The notes under the pieces were generated by a model. The model saw only the letters and a program-made list of their open reading frames with translations, did not search any database and was not told the origin of the DNA. From NCBI GenBank assembly GCA_947474995.1, contig CANJNJ010000014.1, forward strand, positions 1-53,218: DNA of 53,218 bases, given 5' to 3'. Numbering within the stretch: the stretch's first letter is position 1; the number at the start of each line of letters is the position of its first letter. This document shows, piece by piece, positions 42,125-51,247 of this stretch. The translations under genes and the position numbers were made by a program. This DNA comes from Opitutaceae bacterium. Lineage in GTDB: Bacteria > Verrucomicrobiota > Verrucomicrobiia > Opitutales > Opitutaceae.

Positions 42125-44185
42125 TTACCGCGCCGTCCAGTCCCAGTGGCGACCCGCGCGCTCGACCGTATTTTCGACGTCCTCCGCCAGCAGGAACCCG
42201 TCCTTCACCAACGCGAGCGCCGAGGCACGGATCTTTTGGAGATAGTCATCGCGCCCGTGGTAGCGTTCTTCGATGGACGGACGGGGATCGTGGCGCGCCT
42301 CCCGCTCGGCCTTGGTCTTGGCGAAGGGGAGGTAGGAGCCGATTAGCGCGATGGGCGTGGTCGGGTTGCCGATTTTTTCGGACCGAAAATTCCACCCGGT
42401 CGTGGTGGCGAGCGGGACAGCCAGCTCGGGCACGCGGATTCCGGCCAGATCGTTCCCGTCGGCATCGACCTGCGGAACGAGATGCGGCAGCGGCTTCTGC
42501 GGACCCTCGATGGTGCGCGGATCGCCGGCGCCGGCGAGCGTGGGAAAGCGCACCGCGCTGATCGGTGTGAGGGTTTGATCCGCGAGCCGCGGATGCCGGC
42601 TGGCGGGCGGCGGCGTGCCCTCGGTCACCCAGCGATGTCCGGCCACGAGCAGCGCCCGCATGACGTTCGCCTGCGGCGTGGGATTGGGCAGCGACTGGCC
42701 GGGCCCAGCCGTCGGTGGAAACGCGGCTTCGCCGTGCTGCGTGCCCGCCAGCAGATAGCGCCGGACGGTGGGCAACTCGGCGACGTCGGAGCGGCCGTCG
42801 ATGGACGTGTGCGTAAGCGCCGCCGCCCGGCCCTGGCCCCAGTATTCGACGTCGGTATTCGTGTAGATAATCTTCGGCCGCTGTGCCGGCCGATACCGCG
42901 CCAGCAGGCCATCGCGCGTGCCACCGGTGTCTTGTTGCTCAAGATCGGTGTACGGAAATCTCAGCGCCGGGAACGAAGAGTAGCTGGGCGTCGCGAAGCG
43001 CTCGTTGAACGAGCCCTGGCCCGCGCCGGCGATGTGCGGCCAGACGAGGTCGAAGGCCGGTCGGTCGTGCTCGTCGAGATTGAAACCGTCATGGAGGAAT
43101 TGACGCAGGAAACGCCCGCTCTGGGAAATCCCGAGCACGTAGGCCGCGCGGCCGTGGACGGGAAGATCGGTCCGGTTTTTGAACGCCGAGGCGGCGTCAC
43201 GAATGGCGGCGAAACCGACGCCGGCCACGCGCGAACCTTTGGCGGGGAAGTCGATTTCATAGACCCGACCCGGTTCGAAGCCGCTGTCCAGGGCGAGCCG
43301 CGGCCGGCCGTTCGCGGCCGCCGCGAGAAATCGCCATTGGGCGCGAGGGAGTGTGGTCGGGTGCTCCCAGAAAAGATTGCGAACCGTCAGCGCCACCGAC
43401 GCGTCGTTGGGATCGACCGGCTGGTAATCGGGCAGGTCGCTCAACGTCATCTCGGTCTGACGCTCGGCGGGAATGAACGACAGGCGCACGCGACCCGAAA
43501 CGTCGACGGCCGGAGCTTCCATGCGCACGCCGGGAGGCGGGACATCAAACTGCCATCCCACCCACACGAGGGTATAGCCCGCTTGCATCAGGAAGCCGTC
43601 GCCCAGGTCGGCCGCGCTGGTTGGGTTGCCGCTGTTCTGCGCCCGATTGAACCGGCCAAGCAGAAATTTGTTTCCGCGATTGGAGATCTCGAAGAGCAGC
43701 GCGCCGTTGCCGCGCGCGGGGTCGGCTGGCTGCAGGGCGAACAAGTCCGCGGTAAAATGGACGCGGCCATCCGCGGCCCGCGCGGCGAGCGGCAAGTCGG
43801 CGATGGGGAGGTTGTGCTTGTCCGCGGGATCAAGGGCGAACTCGATCGTGCCGGTGAGCTTTTCGTAAGCGCCGGTCTGGCCGTAGGACTTCCCGTCGGC
43901 CACGGGTGTCCGCGAGGCGATGGTCACTTTGACGATTTCGGCGCGGACCGGAGACAGCGCGCTGACGAGCAGGGCGGCGATAATGCCGAAATTCGTCCAG
44001 AACCGGACAAGGTTGAGGTAGGGACGGCTCTCCGAGCCGGCCGCGGACGCCTGCGGAGAGGCGTCCCTCTCGCGCGGCTGAGCGAAAGACCAAATGGATT
44101 CGGTGGCCGGGATCATCGGCGATGGAAACGGCTTCATTGGCAATCGGGTGGATTTGGGCGCAGCAAAGGAAAGAGTATCGACCAT
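42125..44185 (-). CDS. Exported alpha/beta hydrolase-domain protein (PF20091-like), with a repeat in its 5' part
   Basis: 686 residues if read from the ATG adjacent to the stop of the upstream gene. A signal-peptide-like segment does not come until residues 60-82 (FWTNFGIIAALLVSALSPVRA). Residues 38-57 are encoded by a family B palindrome (44018-44070). No ATG, GTG or TTG lies between that repeat and the signal, so either the long N-terminus is made or a non-standard start is used. The mature part shows the family pattern: IVKVTIASRTPVADGKSYG, ALLFEISNRGNK, and the nucleophile elbow GISQSGRFLRQF. It probably hydrolyses an ester or lactone in the periplasm. It is the last gene of a leftward three-gene unit. 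Confidence 0.8.
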   Translation of the reverse strand: MVDTLSFAAPKSTRLPMKPFPSPMIPATESIWSFAQPRERDASPQASAAGSESRPYLNLVRFWTNFGIIAALLVSALSPVRAEIVKVTIASRTPVADGKSYGQTGAYEKLTGTIEFALDPADKHNLPIADLPLAARAADGRVHFTADLFALQPADPARGNGALLFEISNRGNKFLLGRFNRAQNSGNPTSAADLGDGFLMQAGYTLVWVGWQFDVPPPGVRMEAPAVDVSGRVRLSFIPAERQTEMTLSDLPDYQPVDPNDASVALTVRNLFWEHPTTLPRAQWRFLAAAANGRPRLALDSGFEPGRVYEIDFPAKGSRVAGVGFAAIRDAASAFKNRTDLPVHGRAAYVLGISQSGRFLRQFLHDGFNLDEHDRPAFDLVWPHIAGAGQGSFNERFATPSYSSFPALRFPYTDLEQQDTGGTRDGLLARYRPAQRPKIIYTNTDVEYWGQGRAAALTHTSIDGRSDVAELPTVRRYLLAGTQHGEAAFPPTAGPGQSLPNPTPQANVMRALLVAGHRWVTEGTPPPASRHPRLADQTLTPISAVRFPTLAGAGDPRTIEGPQKPLPHLVPQVDADGNDLAGIRVPELAVPLATTTGWNFRSEKIGNPTTPIALIGSYLPFAKTKAEREARHDPRPSIEERYHGRDDYLQKIRASALALVKDGFLLAEDVENTVERAGRHWDWTAR
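44018..44070. repeat. Family B palindrome inside an open reading frame
   Basis: GTAGGGACGGCTCTCCGAGC then CGGCCGCGGACGCCTGCGGA then GAGGCGTCCCTC. The same element elsewhere lies between genes; here it is read in frame within the 5' part of the alpha/beta hydrolase gene. Confidence 0.65.
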
Positions 44186-45703
44186 TCACCCGGTCCGCTG
44201 CAGCAGCGGTCGGAGCGTTCGCAAATCCTTCAGCGCTTCCAACGACAGCACGCTTTCGATCAAGCGGCGGCTCGGCTCCGCGCCGAGTCGCGGGGCCATC
44301 AGGTCGTGGCCTTTGGCGACGACCTCGTCGCGCGTCATGGGATTTTCGGCGGTGCCCCGGACCGCCTTGACCCGCTCAACGAGCGCGGTGCCGTCGCTCA
44401 GGGTGACTTCGACGATCGCCTGCCGCTCGGGATAAAGTTTTTCGAGTTCCTCATCGGGCACGAGTTGCACCTTCGCGCGCAGGCGGCGGACGACGGCGTC
44501 CTGCATTCGGGCTTTGTCGTGCGCGACGGAAAACGAGACGGTGCCGTCGAGCAGCATGACCGCGACCATGTGCTGCAGGGAAATGTTGGGCATGTCGCGA
44601 TCGTTGACGGTCTTCGCTTCGCTCGTCGCGACGCGGACGACGACCTTCTCCACTTGGTCGGCTTCGAACGGCTTCTTCTTCCGCAAAATCTGCAGGGCAT
44701 CGAGTGGCGCCTGAATCGGCGAACCCACGGTCCATTTCTTGATGTTCGTCCGCATGACCTCGTAGCGCGCACCGAGCTTTTCCACCAGCCGGCCCGGCTC
44801 CGCCTTCGGATTGTACGCCAGCAGAAAGTTGTCCGCCCCGGAGAGAATATCATCCACGCCGGTGGCGCCCAATTGGATCATCAACGCGGCGGCGACCCCG
44901 TTGCGGGCGGGGTTGCCGCCGAAGACGAGCGACTTGGAAACATGCTCGAGGTCGCGCATCCAGGCGGCGACCCCGGAGGACTGTTGCGCCGCGTAATCGA
45001 GCAGCCAGCGCATCTGCTGCGCGTTCAGCCCCGCCGCGCAGCCCGCGGCGGCGGCGGCGCCAAAATTCCCGCCGATGCTGTGCGTGCTGTGGTGAGTCTC
45101 CATCTGGAACGACAGCCCGCCCAGCGCCATTGTCACGCGCGGGCCGACGTCGTAGCCGAGGGCCACGGCCCGCAGGAAGTGTGCGCCGCTGACCCCAAAC
45201 TGTTCGCCGGCCGCCAGTGCGGCTGGCACCACGGCGCAGCCCGGATGCGTGTGCGAAGGCGCATGCGAGTCGTCGGTTTCGTCAGAGTGTGCCAGCATGC
45301 CATTGACGAGGGCGGCTTCGAGCGCGCCGCCCAGCACGTTCGTGCCGACGATCGTCGCCGTGCTGGCTCCACCGTAGGCGCGGGCAAATTTCAGGGCGAC
45401 CTGGGCCGGGGGCAGTTCGGCGCCGGACACCATGGCGGCGATCGTATCGAGGACGTGGTGTTTCGTCTTTTCCAGCACCGCGGCTGGAAGCTCCCGGCCG
45501 CCGGCCGCCGCCAGGTAATCGGCCAGCTGTTTCATGACCGCACCGTTGGCCGCCGTGGAATTGGCCACGGGAGTGTCCGCCCCACCGAGGCGGAAAAGCG
45601 GAAAACCGGCGGCCAGCAGTGCGCCGCCGGCACTTTGCAGCAGGCGGCGTCTGGTCAGAACCGACGGTGTCCGCCCGCCTGGGTTCAAGGGATCTTTAGT
45701 CAT
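44186..45703 (-). CDS. MmgE/PrpD-family protein with Tat-like signal
   Basis: 505 residues from the ATG at 45701-45703. The N-terminus has a twin-arginine type signal (TRRRLLQSAGGALLAAGFPL) ahead of the family fold. PrpD and relatives dehydrate 2-methylcitrate or isomerise related acids. Conserved family segments include HVLDTIAAMVSGAELP, LVNGMLAHSDETDDSHAPSH (the His/Asp-rich substrate site), THSIGGNFGAAAAAG and HMVAVMLLDG. Cytoplasmic family members have no signal, so an exported copy is unusual. The downstream hydrolase starts at its stop codon; the DapA-like gene lies upstream on the same strand across a 206-base gap with a family D repeat. Confidence 0.85.
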   Translation of the reverse strand: MTKDPLNPGGRTPSVLTRRRLLQSAGGALLAAGFPLFRLGGADTPVANSTAANGAVMKQLADYLAAAGGRELPAAVLEKTKHHVLDTIAAMVSGAELPPAQVALKFARAYGGASTATIVGTNVLGGALEAALVNGMLAHSDETDDSHAPSHTHPGCAVVPAALAAGEQFGVSGAHFLRAVALGYDVGPRVTMALGGLSFQMETHHSTHSIGGNFGAAAAAGCAAGLNAQQMRWLLDYAAQQSSGVAAWMRDLEHVSKSLVFGGNPARNGVAAALMIQLGATGVDDILSGADNFLLAYNPKAEPGRLVEKLGARYEVMRTNIKKWTVGSPIQAPLDALQILRKKKPFEADQVEKVVVRVATSEAKTVNDRDMPNISLQHMVAVMLLDGTVSFSVAHDKARMQDAVVRRLRAKVQLVPDEELEKLYPERQAIVEVTLSDGTALVERVKAVRGTAENPMTRDEVVAKGHDLMAPRLGAEPSRRLIESVLSLEALKDLRTLRPLLQRTG

Positions 45704-45799
45704 CTGATCCCGGGAGCGATTGGCGCCCATTGGGTTTCACCGCGGACGGGAGCCAGCGTTCAGACCTTGGGACGGCCGGGCATTTTCGGCCAATGTTCA

Positions 45800-45864
45800 C
45801 TGGAGCGGCGACGCCCTCGGCGCGGTCCTTTCTCCGTGCGACGCGGCGAGGGCGCCGCGTCCCC
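45800..45864. repeat. Palindromic repeat, family D
   Basis: TGGAGCGGCGACGCCCTCGG against GCGACGCGGCGAGGGCGCCG; closely matches the element at 19020-19084, including the preceding TCAC. Confidence 0.65.
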
Positions 45865-45909
45865 AGCAGAACGAACATGGCGGGACGGGTTAAAGTTCGA
45901 GACGACCTG

Positions 45910-46980
45910 CTACGCCTTGAGGTGCGGTTTCAACGAAGCCACCAGCGCCTGCAGGGTCTTCTTGCCCTCGTCGTCGAGCGGCTTGTTGCGCGTGCCACCC
46001 GTGGCGACCTTGGTCGCCTCGGCAAAGCCCCGGGTCGGCACCGTGCGGGCCGAAAAGGTGCTGAACACGCCGCGCTCCTTCAGGACGTACTTCATTCCCT
46101 CCATGCCGTAGCGGAGCATCACGTCGAGCGCCTCGAGCGTGCGGGTGTGACTCGCCCGCGCCTCGTCGTGCTTGCCGGCCTGCCAGAGATCGAACGTCGT
46201 CGCGTAGAGGTCGGCGAACCCCGCCGCCGGCATGCTGCCGGAAAAACCGGCTTCGAGCTCGGCGATCATCTTGCGGCCGTGGTTGCCGGAAAAGACCTTG
46301 ATTTCGTCGTGGCTCTTTTCGCGCAGCGGCCCGACGCGCTGCAGCGGATCGCCCGCCTCGTCCTTCACGTAGCGCATCGTCGGAATCGTGCGATAGAGCT
46401 CGAGGAGCAGGTCCTCGTCCATTTTTCCTACCGCCTGCACGAACAGCGGCAGCCCGGTCGATTTTCCGACTTCCTGGTAGTAGCTCACCAGGGCCTTGGG
46501 ATCGGAGTTGTCGCCGGGCGGCAGGGAAATGATGGCGTCGGCGCCGACGCGTTCCGCCTGCTTGATGTAGCGCCGCACCGCCGCGAGGTCCGCGCCCTGC
46601 ACGCCGAGAATGACCGCGGTCTTCGCCTTGCGCGCCGCCTGGCCGATCGCCTCCATGCCGGCCATCCGTTCGCCCTCGGTCAAGGTCGACCACTCGCTGG
46701 CGAGCTGCGGCCAGACAAAACCGTGGACGCCGCCGCGATCGATGAACTCCAACTGCCGGACGAGGGCTTCGACATCGAGCTTGTCGGCCGCGGTGAACGG
46801 TGTTTGCGCGATGGGGAAGATGCCGCGAAGACGTTTGGTGCCAGCGGGCCGATCGGTGGTGGCCGCGAAACCGCGATAGCCCAGGCCGAGACCAAGCGCG
46901 CCGGCTCCAAGCAGACGCAAAAAATTCCGACGATCGAGCGATTCAAGGCGCGAGGGGTGGGGCGCATTCATGCGCTGCAA
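45910..46980 (-). CDS. Tat-exported DapA-superfamily protein
   Basis: 356 residues (or 353 from the ATG at 46969-46971). A twin-arginine signal is visible at LDRRNFLRLLGAGALGLGLG, cleaved near residue 40. The barrel follows from RLRGIFPIAQTPFT. The Schiff-base lysine is kept in MRYVKDEAG. The YN motif of classical members is absent (LPLFVQAVG), so the tyrosine proton shuttle is missing, as in the homologue at 3612-4544. Around residue 88 the GTTGE-like loop reads WPQLASEWSTLTEGER. Class I aldolases normally act in the cytoplasm, so export is notable. It heads a leftward unit with the MmgE/PrpD and alpha/beta hydrolase genes, suggesting that they work on one compound in the periplasm (inference). 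Confidence 0.83.
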   Translation of the reverse strand: MQRMNAPHPSRLESLDRRNFLRLLGAGALGLGLGYRGFAATTDRPAGTKRLRGIFPIAQTPFTAADKLDVEALVRQLEFIDRGGVHGFVWPQLASEWSTLTEGERMAGMEAIGQAARKAKTAVILGVQGADLAAVRRYIKQAERVGADAIISLPPGDNSDPKALVSYYQEVGKSTGLPLFVQAVGKMDEDLLLELYRTIPTMRYVKDEAGDPLQRVGPLREKSHDEIKVFSGNHGRKMIAELEAGFSGSMPAAGFADLYATTFDLWQAGKHDEARASHTRTLEALDVMLRYGMEGMKYVLKERGVFSTFSARTVPTRGFAEATKVATGGTRNKPLDDEGKKTLQALVASLKPHLKA

Positions 46981-47178: not shown

Positions 47179-49218
47179 TTATGCCGCCGGAGCGAATTGC
47201 GGGTGCCCTGCGATCCGGCGTTCGAACGCGGCCTTGGCCGCTTCTTCCAAGCCCGCCGGATATTTCGAACCGCTCCGCCGCCAGCGGGCGAGCCACTCGG
47301 CGCCGAGCAGGCGCGGCGCATCGGCCGCGGCGATTTGGTTTTCCCGACGGGTGAGCGCCACCGTCGTCGTCGCTTTCGGCCCCGTGCCCACGCCTTCCGC
47401 GACATAGAATCCCGCCACCAGCAGCGCGACGCGCACCGCCGTCGCGGCCGAGTAGGTGTAAAGCTCCGCGGCGCCCGGCTGACAATGGCGGTGAATGCGG
47501 GCAAATACGTCAGCCTGCCACAGCGCCGTGTCGGTCTTGGCCGAAAACGGGTCGTAATAGATCAGGTCCGGCGCCGGCGCCGTCTCGAGCAGCGTGAGAA
47601 AGTCCCCGCGGAGCAGCCGCCAGTCGATGAGGCCCGAAGCGTGGCGCCAGTGTCCGGCGCGGAGGAGCCCTTCGGGGGCGCCGTGCCGGAGGTGGTGAAA
47701 GCGTGCGGCGTTGCGCGCGGCGAGCGTGAGCGGATCGAGGTCGCGCTCAAAGCTGATGAGGTGCAGGGGTCGCAACGCGGCTGGGCCGGTTTCGGCCAGT
47801 TCCTTTTCGGCGCGATGGACCGCGGCCATGGCGTTGGAGGCCGCGCCGAGTCCGACGTCCCAAACCACGAGCGGCTGTTCGTCGTCGGCGTGACGTCGGC
47901 GCAGCCGGGTCGCGAGGCGGGATTGCTCGATGTAGAGCCGGTTCGCTTCCTCGGCGGGCGCCGAAACCGAATGCATCACCTCGCCGGAACTGAGTTGGCG
48001 AATGCTGGAAAACCCCTGGGGCGAGGCGAGCACCTCGTAGTCGCCCAAGCGGGGCAGCCGGCGCACGCGGGCCCGGGCCGGGTGGACCGGCGGATTGGCT
48101 TCGTCGTCGCGCCCGAGTTCCAATCGCTGGCGCTCGTAGTACCCGAGAAATTCGCCCCGCAGGATATGCGCGCGCATTTCGCCCATGAGCCGCTGGTAAA
48201 AAGCGAGGTTGTGCATGGCCAGCAGCTGCCAGCCGAGTGTCTCATCCGCCTTGATCAGATGGTGGAGGTAGGCCCGCGGGTGCGTGCGGCAGGTGGGACA
48301 GTCGCACGCGGCATCCAACGGCTCCTCGGAAAATTTGTAAACCGAGCGACGGCAGTGAATCCGGCCGTGCGACGTGAATGCCGTCCCGCGCTGGGCCAGC
48401 TGCGTGGGAATGATGCAGTCGAACATGTCCACCCCGCGGTGCACGGCCTCGAGAATATCGGTCGGCGTGCCCACGCCCATCAGGTAGCGCGGGCGATCCT
48501 TGGGCAGGTGGTCCGTGGCGAGGTCGGTGAATTCGTAGCGCTCGGCGTGCGTCTCGCCGACGGCGAGTCCGCCGATGGCCAGGCCGTCGAACGGCATCGC
48601 CCGCAAGAATTCCGCGCTGCGAATGCGCAGGTCGCGATGACATCCACCCTGCACAATGCCGAAGAGCGCGGGTGGCTCGTCGCCGCGGGCGCGGAGCGAG
48701 CGTTCGGCCCAGCGGTGCGTCAGGTGCATGGCCGCTTCGGTGTCGGCGTGCGACGCGGTGGACGCGATGCACTGGTCCAGCACCATCATGATGTCGCTGC
48801 CGATCGTGAGCTGCATCTCGATGCTGGACTCGGGCGAAAGGAAATGGAGTTCGCCGTCGACGTAGCTGCGAAATTCCGCCCCGGCTTCGGTCATGACGCG
48901 GTCGGCCGACAGGGAAAAGATCTGGTAGCCGCCGGAATCAGTGAGCACGGGTCGGTCCCAGTTCATGAACCGGTGAATCCCGCCAAATTTCTTGAAGACC
49001 TCCGGACCGGGTCGAAGCAGCAAGTGGTAGGTGTTGGCGAGCAGGACCTGGACATCGAGGGCCCGCAAGCCGTCGCCCGTCATGTTCTTGACGGTCGCCT
49101 GCGTGCCCACCGGCATGAAAACCGGAGTGCGCACCTCGCCGTGCGCGGTTTGGAAGCGCGCGGCCCGGGCCTTGGAGCCGGGCGATTCCTTTTCGAGCGT
49201 GAACGGGAGGCGGGACAT
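47179..49218 (-). CDS. tgt: tRNA-guanine transglycosylase fused to an MnmC-like methyltransferase domain
   Basis: 679 residues from the ATG at 49216-49218, against about 375 for normal Tgt. Residues 1-370 are Tgt: base D94 (LTDSGGYQIFSL), D148 and C150 (MVLDQC), Q190 (GIVQGG), nucleophile D267 (DMFDC) and zinc ligands C305, C307, C310 and H336. It swaps G34 for preQ1 in GUN anticodons. Residues from about 393 to 620 match the methyltransferase half of MnmC: GDYEVLASPQGFSS, GEVMHSVSAPAEEANR, the SAM loop WDVGLGAASNA (453-463), FERD, and YYDPFSAKTDTALWQADVF near 555-572. MnmC makes mnm5U34. So one chain carries two wobble-base activities. In the Tgt loop after the nucleophile, the usual TRNARNG reads TQLAQRG. 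The reading frame is continuous through the junction. Confidence 0.9.
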   Translation of the reverse strand: MSRLPFTLEKESPGSKARAARFQTAHGEVRTPVFMPVGTQATVKNMTGDGLRALDVQVLLANTYHLLLRPGPEVFKKFGGIHRFMNWDRPVLTDSGGYQIFSLSADRVMTEAGAEFRSYVDGELHFLSPESSIEMQLTIGSDIMMVLDQCIASTASHADTEAAMHLTHRWAERSLRARGDEPPALFGIVQGGCHRDLRIRSAEFLRAMPFDGLAIGGLAVGETHAERYEFTDLATDHLPKDRPRYLMGVGTPTDILEAVHRGVDMFDCIIPTQLAQRGTAFTSHGRIHCRRSVYKFSEEPLDAACDCPTCRTHPRAYLHHLIKADETLGWQLLAMHNLAFYQRLMGEMRAHILRGEFLGYYERQRLELGRDDEANPPVHPARARVRRLPRLGDYEVLASPQGFSSIRQLSSGEVMHSVSAPAEEANRLYIEQSRLATRLRRRHADDEQPLVVWDVGLGAASNAMAAVHRAEKELAETGPAALRPLHLISFERDLDPLTLAARNAARFHHLRHGAPEGLLRAGHWRHASGLIDWRLLRGDFLTLLETAPAPDLIYYDPFSAKTDTALWQADVFARIHRHCQPGAAELYTYSAATAVRVALLVAGFYVAEGVGTGPKATTTVALTRRENQIAAADAPRLLGAEWLARWRRSGSKYPAGLEEAAKAAFERRIAGHPQFAPAA

Positions 49219-50293: not shown

Positions 50294-51247
50294 GTGAGCG
50301 CGCCTTTTATCACCACTGTCACGGGAGATATTGCGGCCGGGAAACTCGGCCCGACCCTGGCGCACGAGCACCTGTACTGCGATGTGTCGATTCATTCGGG
50401 CCGGCCGGACAATCGCGTTATGGACGTGCCGCTGATCGTGCGGGAACTCGCTTATTTTCGCCAGGCGGGTGGCGGCTCGATCGTGGAACTGACGCCCGAA
50501 GGGATTGGGCGCAATCCGGGCAAGCTGCGGGAGATTAGCGAGGCGTCGGGCATACCGATTGTATGCGGGACGGCTTTCTATGATGAATCCACCTACCCGG
50601 ATTGGCTGAAAGTCGCGCCCGTCGACCAGATCGCCGACTATTTCGTGCGGCAGATCGAGGAGGGCGAGCAGGGTGTCCGTTCCGGTTTGATCGGCGAAGT
50701 GGCGAGTCACAACGAGCCGACCCCGAATCCCCATTATCAATTGCGCGAAAACGAGCGCCGGGTGTTCGTGGCGGCGGCCCAGGCACAACGGCGCACGGGC
50801 GTGGCCATTTCCACGCATGCGGCCTTGGGGCGGGCCGGCCACGCGCAACTGGATGTGTTGGAGTCCGCGGGCGCCGACCTGACGCGGGTGGTCATCGGGC
50901 ATTGCGATGCGCACTGGCACGAAGATCCGGAAATCGATCTGAATTACTACCTGCCGATTCTGGCGCGGGGAGCGTACTGCGAGTTCGATATGATCGGCTG
51001 GACCAGTCTCGCGCCGGACGAAATTCGCGCCGAGCGCATCGCGACGCTCGTGAAATTGGGCTGGGCCTCCAAAATCACCCTCGCGACCGATACGTGCCGG
51101 CTGTCGCAGCTGCACGCCAACGGTGGTCGCGGCTACGATTCGCTGTGGCATTCCTTCCTGCCCCGGCTGCGAAAACTCGGCGTGAGCGAGGCCGCCATCC
51201 AGACGATGCTGGTCGAGGCGCCATGCACGGTGCTGGCGAGAAACTGA
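50294..51247 (+). CDS. Phosphotriesterase-family metal-dependent hydrolase
   Basis: 317 residues from a GTG at 50294. The binuclear metal site of the amidohydrolase superfamily is complete: H24 and H26 in LAHEHLYCD, bridging residue E135 in GLIGEVAS (a glutamate as in the lactonase and PHP-like branches, where phosphotriesterase has a carboxylated Lys), H175 in ISTHAALG, H203 in VIGHCDAH and D266 in LATDTCRL. Members hydrolyse lactones, phosphodiesters or organophosphates. No signal peptide. It is the last gene with typical GC content before the AT-rich right end. Confidence 0.88.
   Translation: MSAPFITTVTGDIAAGKLGPTLAHEHLYCDVSIHSGRPDNRVMDVPLIVRELAYFRQAGGGSIVELTPEGIGRNPGKLREISEASGIPIVCGTAFYDESTYPDWLKVAPVDQIADYFVRQIEEGEQGVRSGLIGEVASHNEPTPNPHYQLRENERRVFVAAAQAQRRTGVAISTHAALGRAGHAQLDVLESAGADLTRVVIGHCDAHWHEDPEIDLNYYLPILARGAYCEFDMIGWTSLAPDEIRAERIATLVKLGWASKITLATDTCRLSQLHANGGRGYDSLWHSFLPRLRKLGVSEAAIQTMLVEAPCTVLARN

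Follow-up and report, generated by a model that had tools for sequence, protein, structure and literature searches.

A conserved bacterial gene family joining an accessory tRNA-guanine transglycosylase to an MnmC2-like methyltransferase

The fusion gene and its two domains

The stretch of DNA analysed here (the window) comprises 53,218 nt of contig CANJNJ010000014.1 from the Opitutaceae bacterium assembly GCA_947474995.1. On its minus strand, as are all parts of the gene given below, positions 47179..49218 hold a single gene that joins a tRNA-guanine transglycosylase (Tgt) to a methyltransferase resembling MnmC2. Translation from the ATG at 49218 to the stop at 47179 yields 679 aa (amino acids) plus the stop, with no internal stop codons in the frame, and the N-terminus MSRL was common to all 10 fusion proteins of our first alignment (the window's own and nine relatives). 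The existence of such a fusion, and the names Tgt and MnmC-like for its two domains, had been put forward in an earlier, sequence-only reading of this DNA, and were confirmed by the profile searches, structural comparisons and related loci described below.

The Tgt domain spans residues 16–363 (48130..49173), where the Pfam TGT model (PF01702) scored 483.8 bits against a cut-off of 26.3. The NCBIfam Tgt equivalog TIGR00430 gave 443 bits, above its cut-off of 306.75, and the archaeosine TgtA model TIGR00432 gave 137 bits, below its cut-off of 350. The model of this half superposed on Z. mobilis TGT with a Z-score of 53 at 1.7 Å, and a structure search of the PDB with the whole chain returned Tgt entries only, among the matches listed. 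A linker follows at about residues 367–391 (48046..48120), which was predicted with low confidence (predicted local distance difference test, pLDDT, of 60–64 at residues 371–390). In the AlphaFold2 model of the whole chain (mean pLDDT 88.6, predicted template modelling score, pTM, 0.57) each domain is well folded, whilst the placement of one relative to the other is not fixed.

Residues 392–679 (47182..48045) form an MnmC2-like, S-adenosylmethionine (SAM)-dependent methyltransferase region. Pfam Methyltransf_30 (PF05430) matched residues 531–622 with 50.4 bits (cut-off 22), whilst the MnmC2 domain model NF033855 scored 77.8 bits over residues 411–621, short of the 136 bits that form its cut-off. 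When the C-terminal halves of ten fusion proteins were combined into a profile, it found five sequences in the PDB, all of them MnmC or MnmC2, including one labelled yfcK, the MnmC domain of E. coli. Modelled alone, the methyltransferase half reached a pLDDT of 92.5 and a pTM of 0.91, and its six best structural matches were all MnmC or MnmC2 entries (Z 19.6–23.8), led by Aquifex MnmC2 (3vyw, Z 23.8 over 237 residues) and followed by spermidine synthases with Z up to 17.9. Unlike in bifunctional MnmC, the methyltransferase is joined to a Tgt and not to the flavin adenine dinucleotide (FAD) oxidoreductase MnmC1; the FAD-dependent MnmC1 domain was not among the Pfam matches of the fusion protein, nor, at E up to 1, was PF06962, the family of MnmM. 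A PHROGs search gave no match.

In order to find relatives, a collection of species genomes was scanned with the methyltransferase half, and the best 80 of 486 stretches encoding a relative were kept. Tgt and methyltransferase lay in one frame at 74 of these 80 loci, whilst five ran off the end of a contig before the Tgt motif and one was split. Both halves are under purifying selection, with ratios of nonsynonymous to synonymous substitution (dN/dS) of 0.03–0.22 against six relatives, the lowest of these values coming with near-saturated dS. As 74 of the 80 loci keep one frame and dN/dS is low in both halves, a sequencing, assembly or frame artefact, for which no support was found, one locus of the 80 being split, is refuted to the point of having a negligible chance of being true. 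Moreover, judged from independent assemblies, there is no stop or frameshift at residues 370–393. Thus, the Tgt–methyltransferase fusion is a real, conserved family. The split locus itself (L069 6818-8885, in a record titled Deltaproteobacteria) has its fusion divided between two frames, through either a sequencing error or decay of the gene.

Conserved and altered residues

Like the bacterial Tgts of Z. mobilis (1Q2R) and E. coli, the fusion has the full fold, the catalytic and pocket residues and the zinc ligands. Asp94 (48937..48939), equivalent to the general acid/base Asp102 of Z. mobilis, was found in 95/95 fusion rows with a letter at this position, and Asp267 (48418..48420), the equivalent of the nucleophile Asp280, in 96/96. 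The zinc ligands Cys305, Cys307 and Cys310 (48289..48306) and the fourth ligand, His336 (48211-48213), were each present in all 97 fusion rows. Wherever a letter was present in these 97 rows, the equivalents of Asp156, Cys158, Gln203, the Gly-Leu-Ala-Val base pocket (containing the LAV motif) and Met260 were invariant as well, such that the catalytic and zinc residues, judged complete in the window protein by the sequence-only reading, proved to be constant across the family. Also retained are the equivalents of Phe92, Trp95, Tyr330 and His333, which are presumably dimer-interface residues of Tgt. A mere docking domain would not require invariant catalytic and zinc residues, nor an invariant pocket for preQ1, which is 7-aminomethyl-7-deazaguanine (PMC11897656) and is described as the natural substrate of bacterial Tgt (PMC8136771).

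Unlike in other bacterial Tgts, the loop after the nucleophile is altered in the fusions; in the window protein it reads FDCIIPTQLAQRG (48385..48423). Ordinary Tgts have P-T-R286-x-x-R289-N290-G at this site (Z. mobilis numbering) and fusions mostly P-[TSG]-Q-L-A-Q-R-G, with Arg286 and Arg289 each replaced by Gln and Asn290 by Arg in the window protein. Arg286 was kept in 1 and Arg289 in 2 of 96 fusions, these rows being related and not independent. Both arginines were present in 26/26 ordinary Tgt rows (a set counted without the L069 fragment and a divergent Tgt, L230), in 7/7 plasmid-borne Tgts from Pseudomonadota and Bacillota (one of the seven judged by eye), as well as in the sequences of Z. 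mobilis and 10fb, the latter taken to be the E. coli enzyme. Because Arg286 and Arg289 are missing, we file the fusion as a Tgt subfamily and not as an ordinary Tgt for queuosine at position 34 (Q34). Arg286 is reported to sit at the cavity that joins the ribose-34 and phosphate-35 pockets (PMC5395182). Given the altered loop, the tRNA set of the fusion may therefore differ from the GUN set; the substitutions suggest that the anticodon loop is read differently, a reasonable supposition from the alignment and not a result. The divergent Tgt mentioned above (L230 375-1541, G046:C16) is the third Tgt of the genome that carries the fusion at locus L036; it has both arginines, and its base-pocket motif is GGWPLSE where GGLxVGE is usual.

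Similarly, the methyltransferase half shares with MnmC2/MnmC(m) (the E. coli MnmC N-domain and Aquifex 3VYW) its fold, the PF05430 match and the equivalents of E. coli MnmC Glu101, Asp178 and Lys236, residues reported to be important for SAM or RNA (PMC3648344). In the fusions the Glu was kept in 93/97 rows and the Asp in 94/94, whilst the Lys was kept in 86/94 and was Arg in the remaining 8/94. Unlike MnmC2, which has D-[GA]-F-[AS]-P-x-K-N-P around Asp178 (D-G-F-A-P-A-K-N-P in E. coli and Yersinia, D-A-F-S-P-Y-K-N-P in Aquifex), most fusions have D-P-F-S-x-K-T-D, and P-x-K-N-P is replaced by x-K-T-D in nearly all of them. In the window protein this remodelled loop is DPFSAKTD, with Asp556 as the counterpart of Asp178 (47530..47553); across fusion rows with letters, its Asp was found in 94/94, Lys in 94/94, Thr in 93/94 and the final Asp563 in 88/94. 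Four of five stand-alone relatives of the methyltransferase half retain N-P at the loop, and the fifth, which is the nearest to the window protein by identity, has C-P.

Distribution, paralogy and descent of the family

By record title, most of the best 80 loci are from Verrucomicrobiota, specifically Opitutaceae, and 13 lie outside the phylum: five in Deltaproteobacteria, four in Riflebacteria, and one each in Spirochaetes, Bacteroidetes, Oligoflexia and an unplaced bacterium. These 13 may reflect horizontal transfer or binning error, which are indistinguishable case by case. The search for proteins with both domains was extended across Verrucomicrobiota, where 102 of 387 genomes matched the methyltransferase half: 22 hold the full fusion, three a form with a shortened methyltransferase and three a close stand-alone relative, and the remaining 74 hold mostly frames of ∼550–670 residues, the length expected for bifunctional MnmC, with about ten shorter. 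Within the window's family, the fusion was found in 15 genomes of nine genera in this phylum sample and was missing from at least 20 genomes; within the window's genus it was found in 12/25 genomes and was missing from 13/25. A plasmid search yielded 72 matching records, none of them across >80 % of the query.

The window's own genome has a second, stand-alone Tgt (44 % identical), which was not noticed in the sequence-only reading. The fusion is thus an accessory Tgt paralogue, and the same arrangement recurs in its relatives. In three partly overlapping sets of fusion genomes, a stand-alone Tgt was found in 11/12 from the genus (the exception, G006, is 85 % complete), in 30/31 reached via the loci (the exception being G068, with fragments only in G055 and a partial gene in G048), and in 21/21 from the phylum sample (partial in G164), as well as in 3/3 genomes with a shortened methyltransferase. 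One Tgt was found in each of the 19 genomes tested from the same family without the fusion, and among the 13 genomes of the genus without it, 12 have one Tgt and one, which is incomplete, has none. QueA is encoded in 30/31 fusion genomes. In the 13 fusion genomes from outside Verrucomicrobiota, the stand-alone Tgt adjoins queA in eight and lies ∼3.3 kb from it in a ninth, the two genes are on different contigs in three, and neither was found in G068. As the stand-alone Tgt can adjoin queA and none of the fusion loci does, queuosine synthesis has its own Tgt, to which the fusion is an addition; in the window's genome and the other Opitutaceae compared, the stand-alone Tgt is likewise not beside queA. 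A tie between the fusion and QueA loss was considered and rejected, as QueA was found in 25/25 genomes of the genus, with or without the fusion.

The stand-alone Tgt of the window's genome (L002, G000:C1:58569-59654) has itself lost the zinc ligands Cys318 and Cys320, as have other Opitutales stand-alone Tgts (L215-L217, L232, L236 and L237; e.g. LDNYTCR). In relatives without the fusion, this zinc-ligand-deficient Tgt is the sole Tgt found.

In an unrooted tree made by a quick method from 46 fusion and 27 ordinary Tgt rows (L069 and L230 left out), the fusion Tgts formed one group with a Shimodaira–Hasegawa-like approximate likelihood ratio test (SH-aLRT) support of 100 on a branch of ∼1.0 change per column, and in a smaller, more careful tree (21 fusions after removal of duplicates) the group was supported at 100/100. 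Distances among 44 fusions were correlated at 0.90 between the Tgt and methyltransferase halves, the best of 999 permutations reaching 0.42. A single Tgt group and concordant distances fit one fusion event followed by long joint evolution. These data also bear on whether two ordinary enzymes were joined by chance and carry on their usual jobs with no functional coupling, an idea with which the intact cofactor or catalytic residues of both domains would agree. Against it stand the single Tgt group across several phyla and the concordance of the halves, together with the canonical Tgt alongside in nearly all genomes and the residues changed on both sides, and we therefore regard chance joining as very unlikely.

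Possible substrates and genomic surroundings

QueA acts on preQ1-34, the Tgt product, en route to queuosine; it is unrelated to the methyltransferase of the fusion, transfers and isomerises the ribosyl group from SAM, and is encoded by a separate gene. For MnmC2, the activity described is N-methylation of the amine on the 5-aminomethyl group of base 34 (PMC3648344, PMC9976899). Since MnmC2 modifies an aminomethyl group of base 34, and preQ1-34 bears one at that site, preQ1-34 is a candidate substrate for the fusion. An intact Tgt joined to an aminomethyl methyltransferase with a rebuilt loop, and retained in addition to a route to queuosine, would be explained most simply if preQ1 were inserted and then methylated in place. 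Our favoured reading, to which we assign a probability of roughly 40 %, is thus that the fusion protein methylates the preQ1-34 that its own Tgt domain has made. The Tgt domain would exchange G34 of a tRNA for preQ1, and the MnmC2-like domain would then methylate the exocyclic amine of preQ1-34 with SAM, giving 7-(methylaminomethyl)-7-deazaguanosine, or the dimethyl form, at position 34. Methylation of the amine would probably bar these tRNAs from the QueA step to queuosine, whilst canonical Tgt and QueA would make queuosine on their own tRNAs. A bolder version, in which methylated preQ1 is written at G34 of non-GUN tRNAs so that queuosine and methylated preQ1 form two parallel deazaguanine wobble systems, seems to us rather improbable as a whole.

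Were methylation of preQ1-34 correct, several phyla would make a methylated 7-deazaguanine wobble base by means of one two-headed enzyme, in parallel to queuosine. This would add a modified nucleoside to those of tRNA, would mean that an aminomethyl methyltransferase has shifted from a pyrimidine to a deazapurine, and would offer a Tgt with altered anticodon reading, of use for RNA labelling too. Both parts of the protein come from known superfamilies, and a new nucleoside may be the outcome. In the open-access literature, a scope that leaves most subscription papers and preprints outside and makes for a weak negative, we found no description of a Tgt–MnmC fusion, nor of a methylated preQ1 nucleoside occurring naturally in tRNA.

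Several observations weigh against this proposal. Two fusions, L143 and L067, retain Arg289, and one of the two retains Arg286 too; furthermore, a part of Arg286 and Arg289 in reading U35, as in the 1Q2R structure, is only probable. The Lys236 equivalent and the MnmC2 fold would suit 5-aminomethyluridine (nm5U) equally. In a search that took in at most 8 kb on either side of the fusion at 81 loci, neither QueA nor MnmG was found near any of them, other queuosine genes not being sought; as positive controls, all nine Tgt–queA pairs described above were recovered (9/9). In the methyltransferase tree, from which the truncated L174 and L176 were left out, long branches place the five stand-alone relatives within the fusions, adjoining four divergent ones with an SH-aLRT of 83; later release of the methyltransferase and long-branch error are both possible explanations. 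Finally, one genus (G253, G256 and G265) has lost the methyltransferase half, with the Tgt active site kept and a second Tgt present. The shortened forms, exemplified by L182 4655-6559 in G265 and L183 6350-8086 in G253, end before the catalytic Asp and have intact Tgt catalytic and zinc residues, and as the Tgt tree nests them within the fusions, they represent losses. Where the methyltransferase is lost and a second Tgt is kept, the fusion Tgt has some use apart from methylation, and methylation of preQ1 on its own fails to explain this.

Two further points against it are at the same time what a rival explanation predicts. Here the C-terminal domain would be a methyltransferase for nm5U34 or its 2-thio form (nm5(s2)U34), the Tgt would be a second Q34 enzyme or a docking module, and two wobble modifications would be coupled or co-recruited. 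A separate, strong PF05430 gene was missing in 36/38 fusion genomes, and MnmM (YtqB; PF06962), reported as an alternative nm5s2U34 methyltransferase (PMC9976899), was found in 0/31. The window's own genome, in which a separate mnmC had been proposed as a thing to look for, has none, its sole PF05430 match being the fusion itself. Likewise, all 22 fusion genomes of the phylum scan gave one match apiece, the fusion, with at most six candidates scored per genome, which fits the mutual exclusion of MnmC and MnmM reported for bacteria (PMC9976899). The uridine precursor is probably made, as MnmG matches were found in 38/38 relatives (35 above cut-off), either as nm5U or as the 5-carboxymethylaminomethyl form (cmnm5U); for the same reason, a tie between the fusion and MnmG loss was rejected. 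If this explanation were true, the fusion would be the missing nm5U34 methyltransferase for part of these lineages.

Other evidence speaks against such coupling. MnmM was found in 7/8 other Opitutales families tested (G025-G028, G031, G032, G034 and G035) and in 0/25 genomes of the window's genus, with or without the fusion; the gap thus runs through the lineage and the fusion does not track it, so that the vacancy does not prove that the fusion has taken the role. The genome with locus L036 has, beside the fusion, a separate 335-aa MnmC2-like gene (94 bits), and G067, from a record titled Oligoflexia, has the fusion and two stand-alone relatives (L184 5893-6732 and L185 5531-6511). In addition, the Asp178 loop of the fusions is without the P-x-K-N-P that MnmC2 has in E. 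coli, Yersinia and Aquifex, and coupling leaves the retention of a second, catalytically intact Tgt unexplained. Coupling thus appears possible and somewhat doubtful. As regards a joint role, the sequence-only reading had offered coupled Q34/mnm5U34 (5-methylaminomethyluridine-34) modification, shared recruitment or a changed specificity. Coupling is not our first choice, given the second Tgt, the presence of QueA and the different loop, whilst a changed specificity is directly supported in the sequence by R286Q and R289Q. Weak PF05430 matches of 22–29 bits in nine genomes of the same genus without the fusion and in G003 were rejected as candidates for a separate MnmC, because spermidine-synthase/aminopropyltransferase models fitted better in 10/10, and four comparable matches, spread over G060, G068 and G168, were left out of the count of separate MnmC genes.

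Another rival starts from the change of target: the Tgt half would act on another tRNA or another kind of RNA, the methyltransferase would act elsewhere in the same RNA or on the base before its insertion, and the aminomethyl likeness would be coincidental. Replacement of R286 in 95/96 and of R289 in 94/96 fusions, when every canonical Tgt checked has kept both, agrees with this explanation, as do the remodelled methyltransferase loop and the loss, in one genus, of the methyltransferase but not of the Tgt. However, the closest proteins of known structure to the methyltransferase are without exception MnmC2, which is known to act on an aminomethyl group on base 34, the very group that Tgt installs, and we consider this rival unlikely. 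Methylation of preQ1-34 by the fusion remains the reading that we favour.

The genes around these loci were also compared. Clustering of open reading frames (ORFs) around the 80 fusion loci and the window revealed no neighbour common to all, and the largest clusters were rejected as evidence for an operon, since from their positions and letters they appear to be frames of the fusion gene itself, either overlapping or antisense. No queuosine or mnm genes were seen among the neighbours tested of the stand-alone methyltransferase relatives; these neighbours encode SpoU methylases, a DUF885 protein, an ABC transporter, an FAD-binding protein, a ComM-like ATPase, an esterase, a sigma factor, a leucyl-tRNA synthetase, AcrB and a DusB-like frame under its cut-off. 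The leucyl-tRNA synthetase gene adjoins one of the two stand-alone relatives in G067. In the window, which was scanned for a preQ1 riboswitch, Rfam gave no match at gathering scores, and a scan of 20 related loci returned one tRNA and nothing else. The genes that neighbour the fusion in the window, at 42125-46980 and 50294-51247, match the alpha/beta hydrolase, MmgE/PrpD, dihydrodipicolinate synthetase and phosphotriesterase families, all of them unrelated to tRNA.

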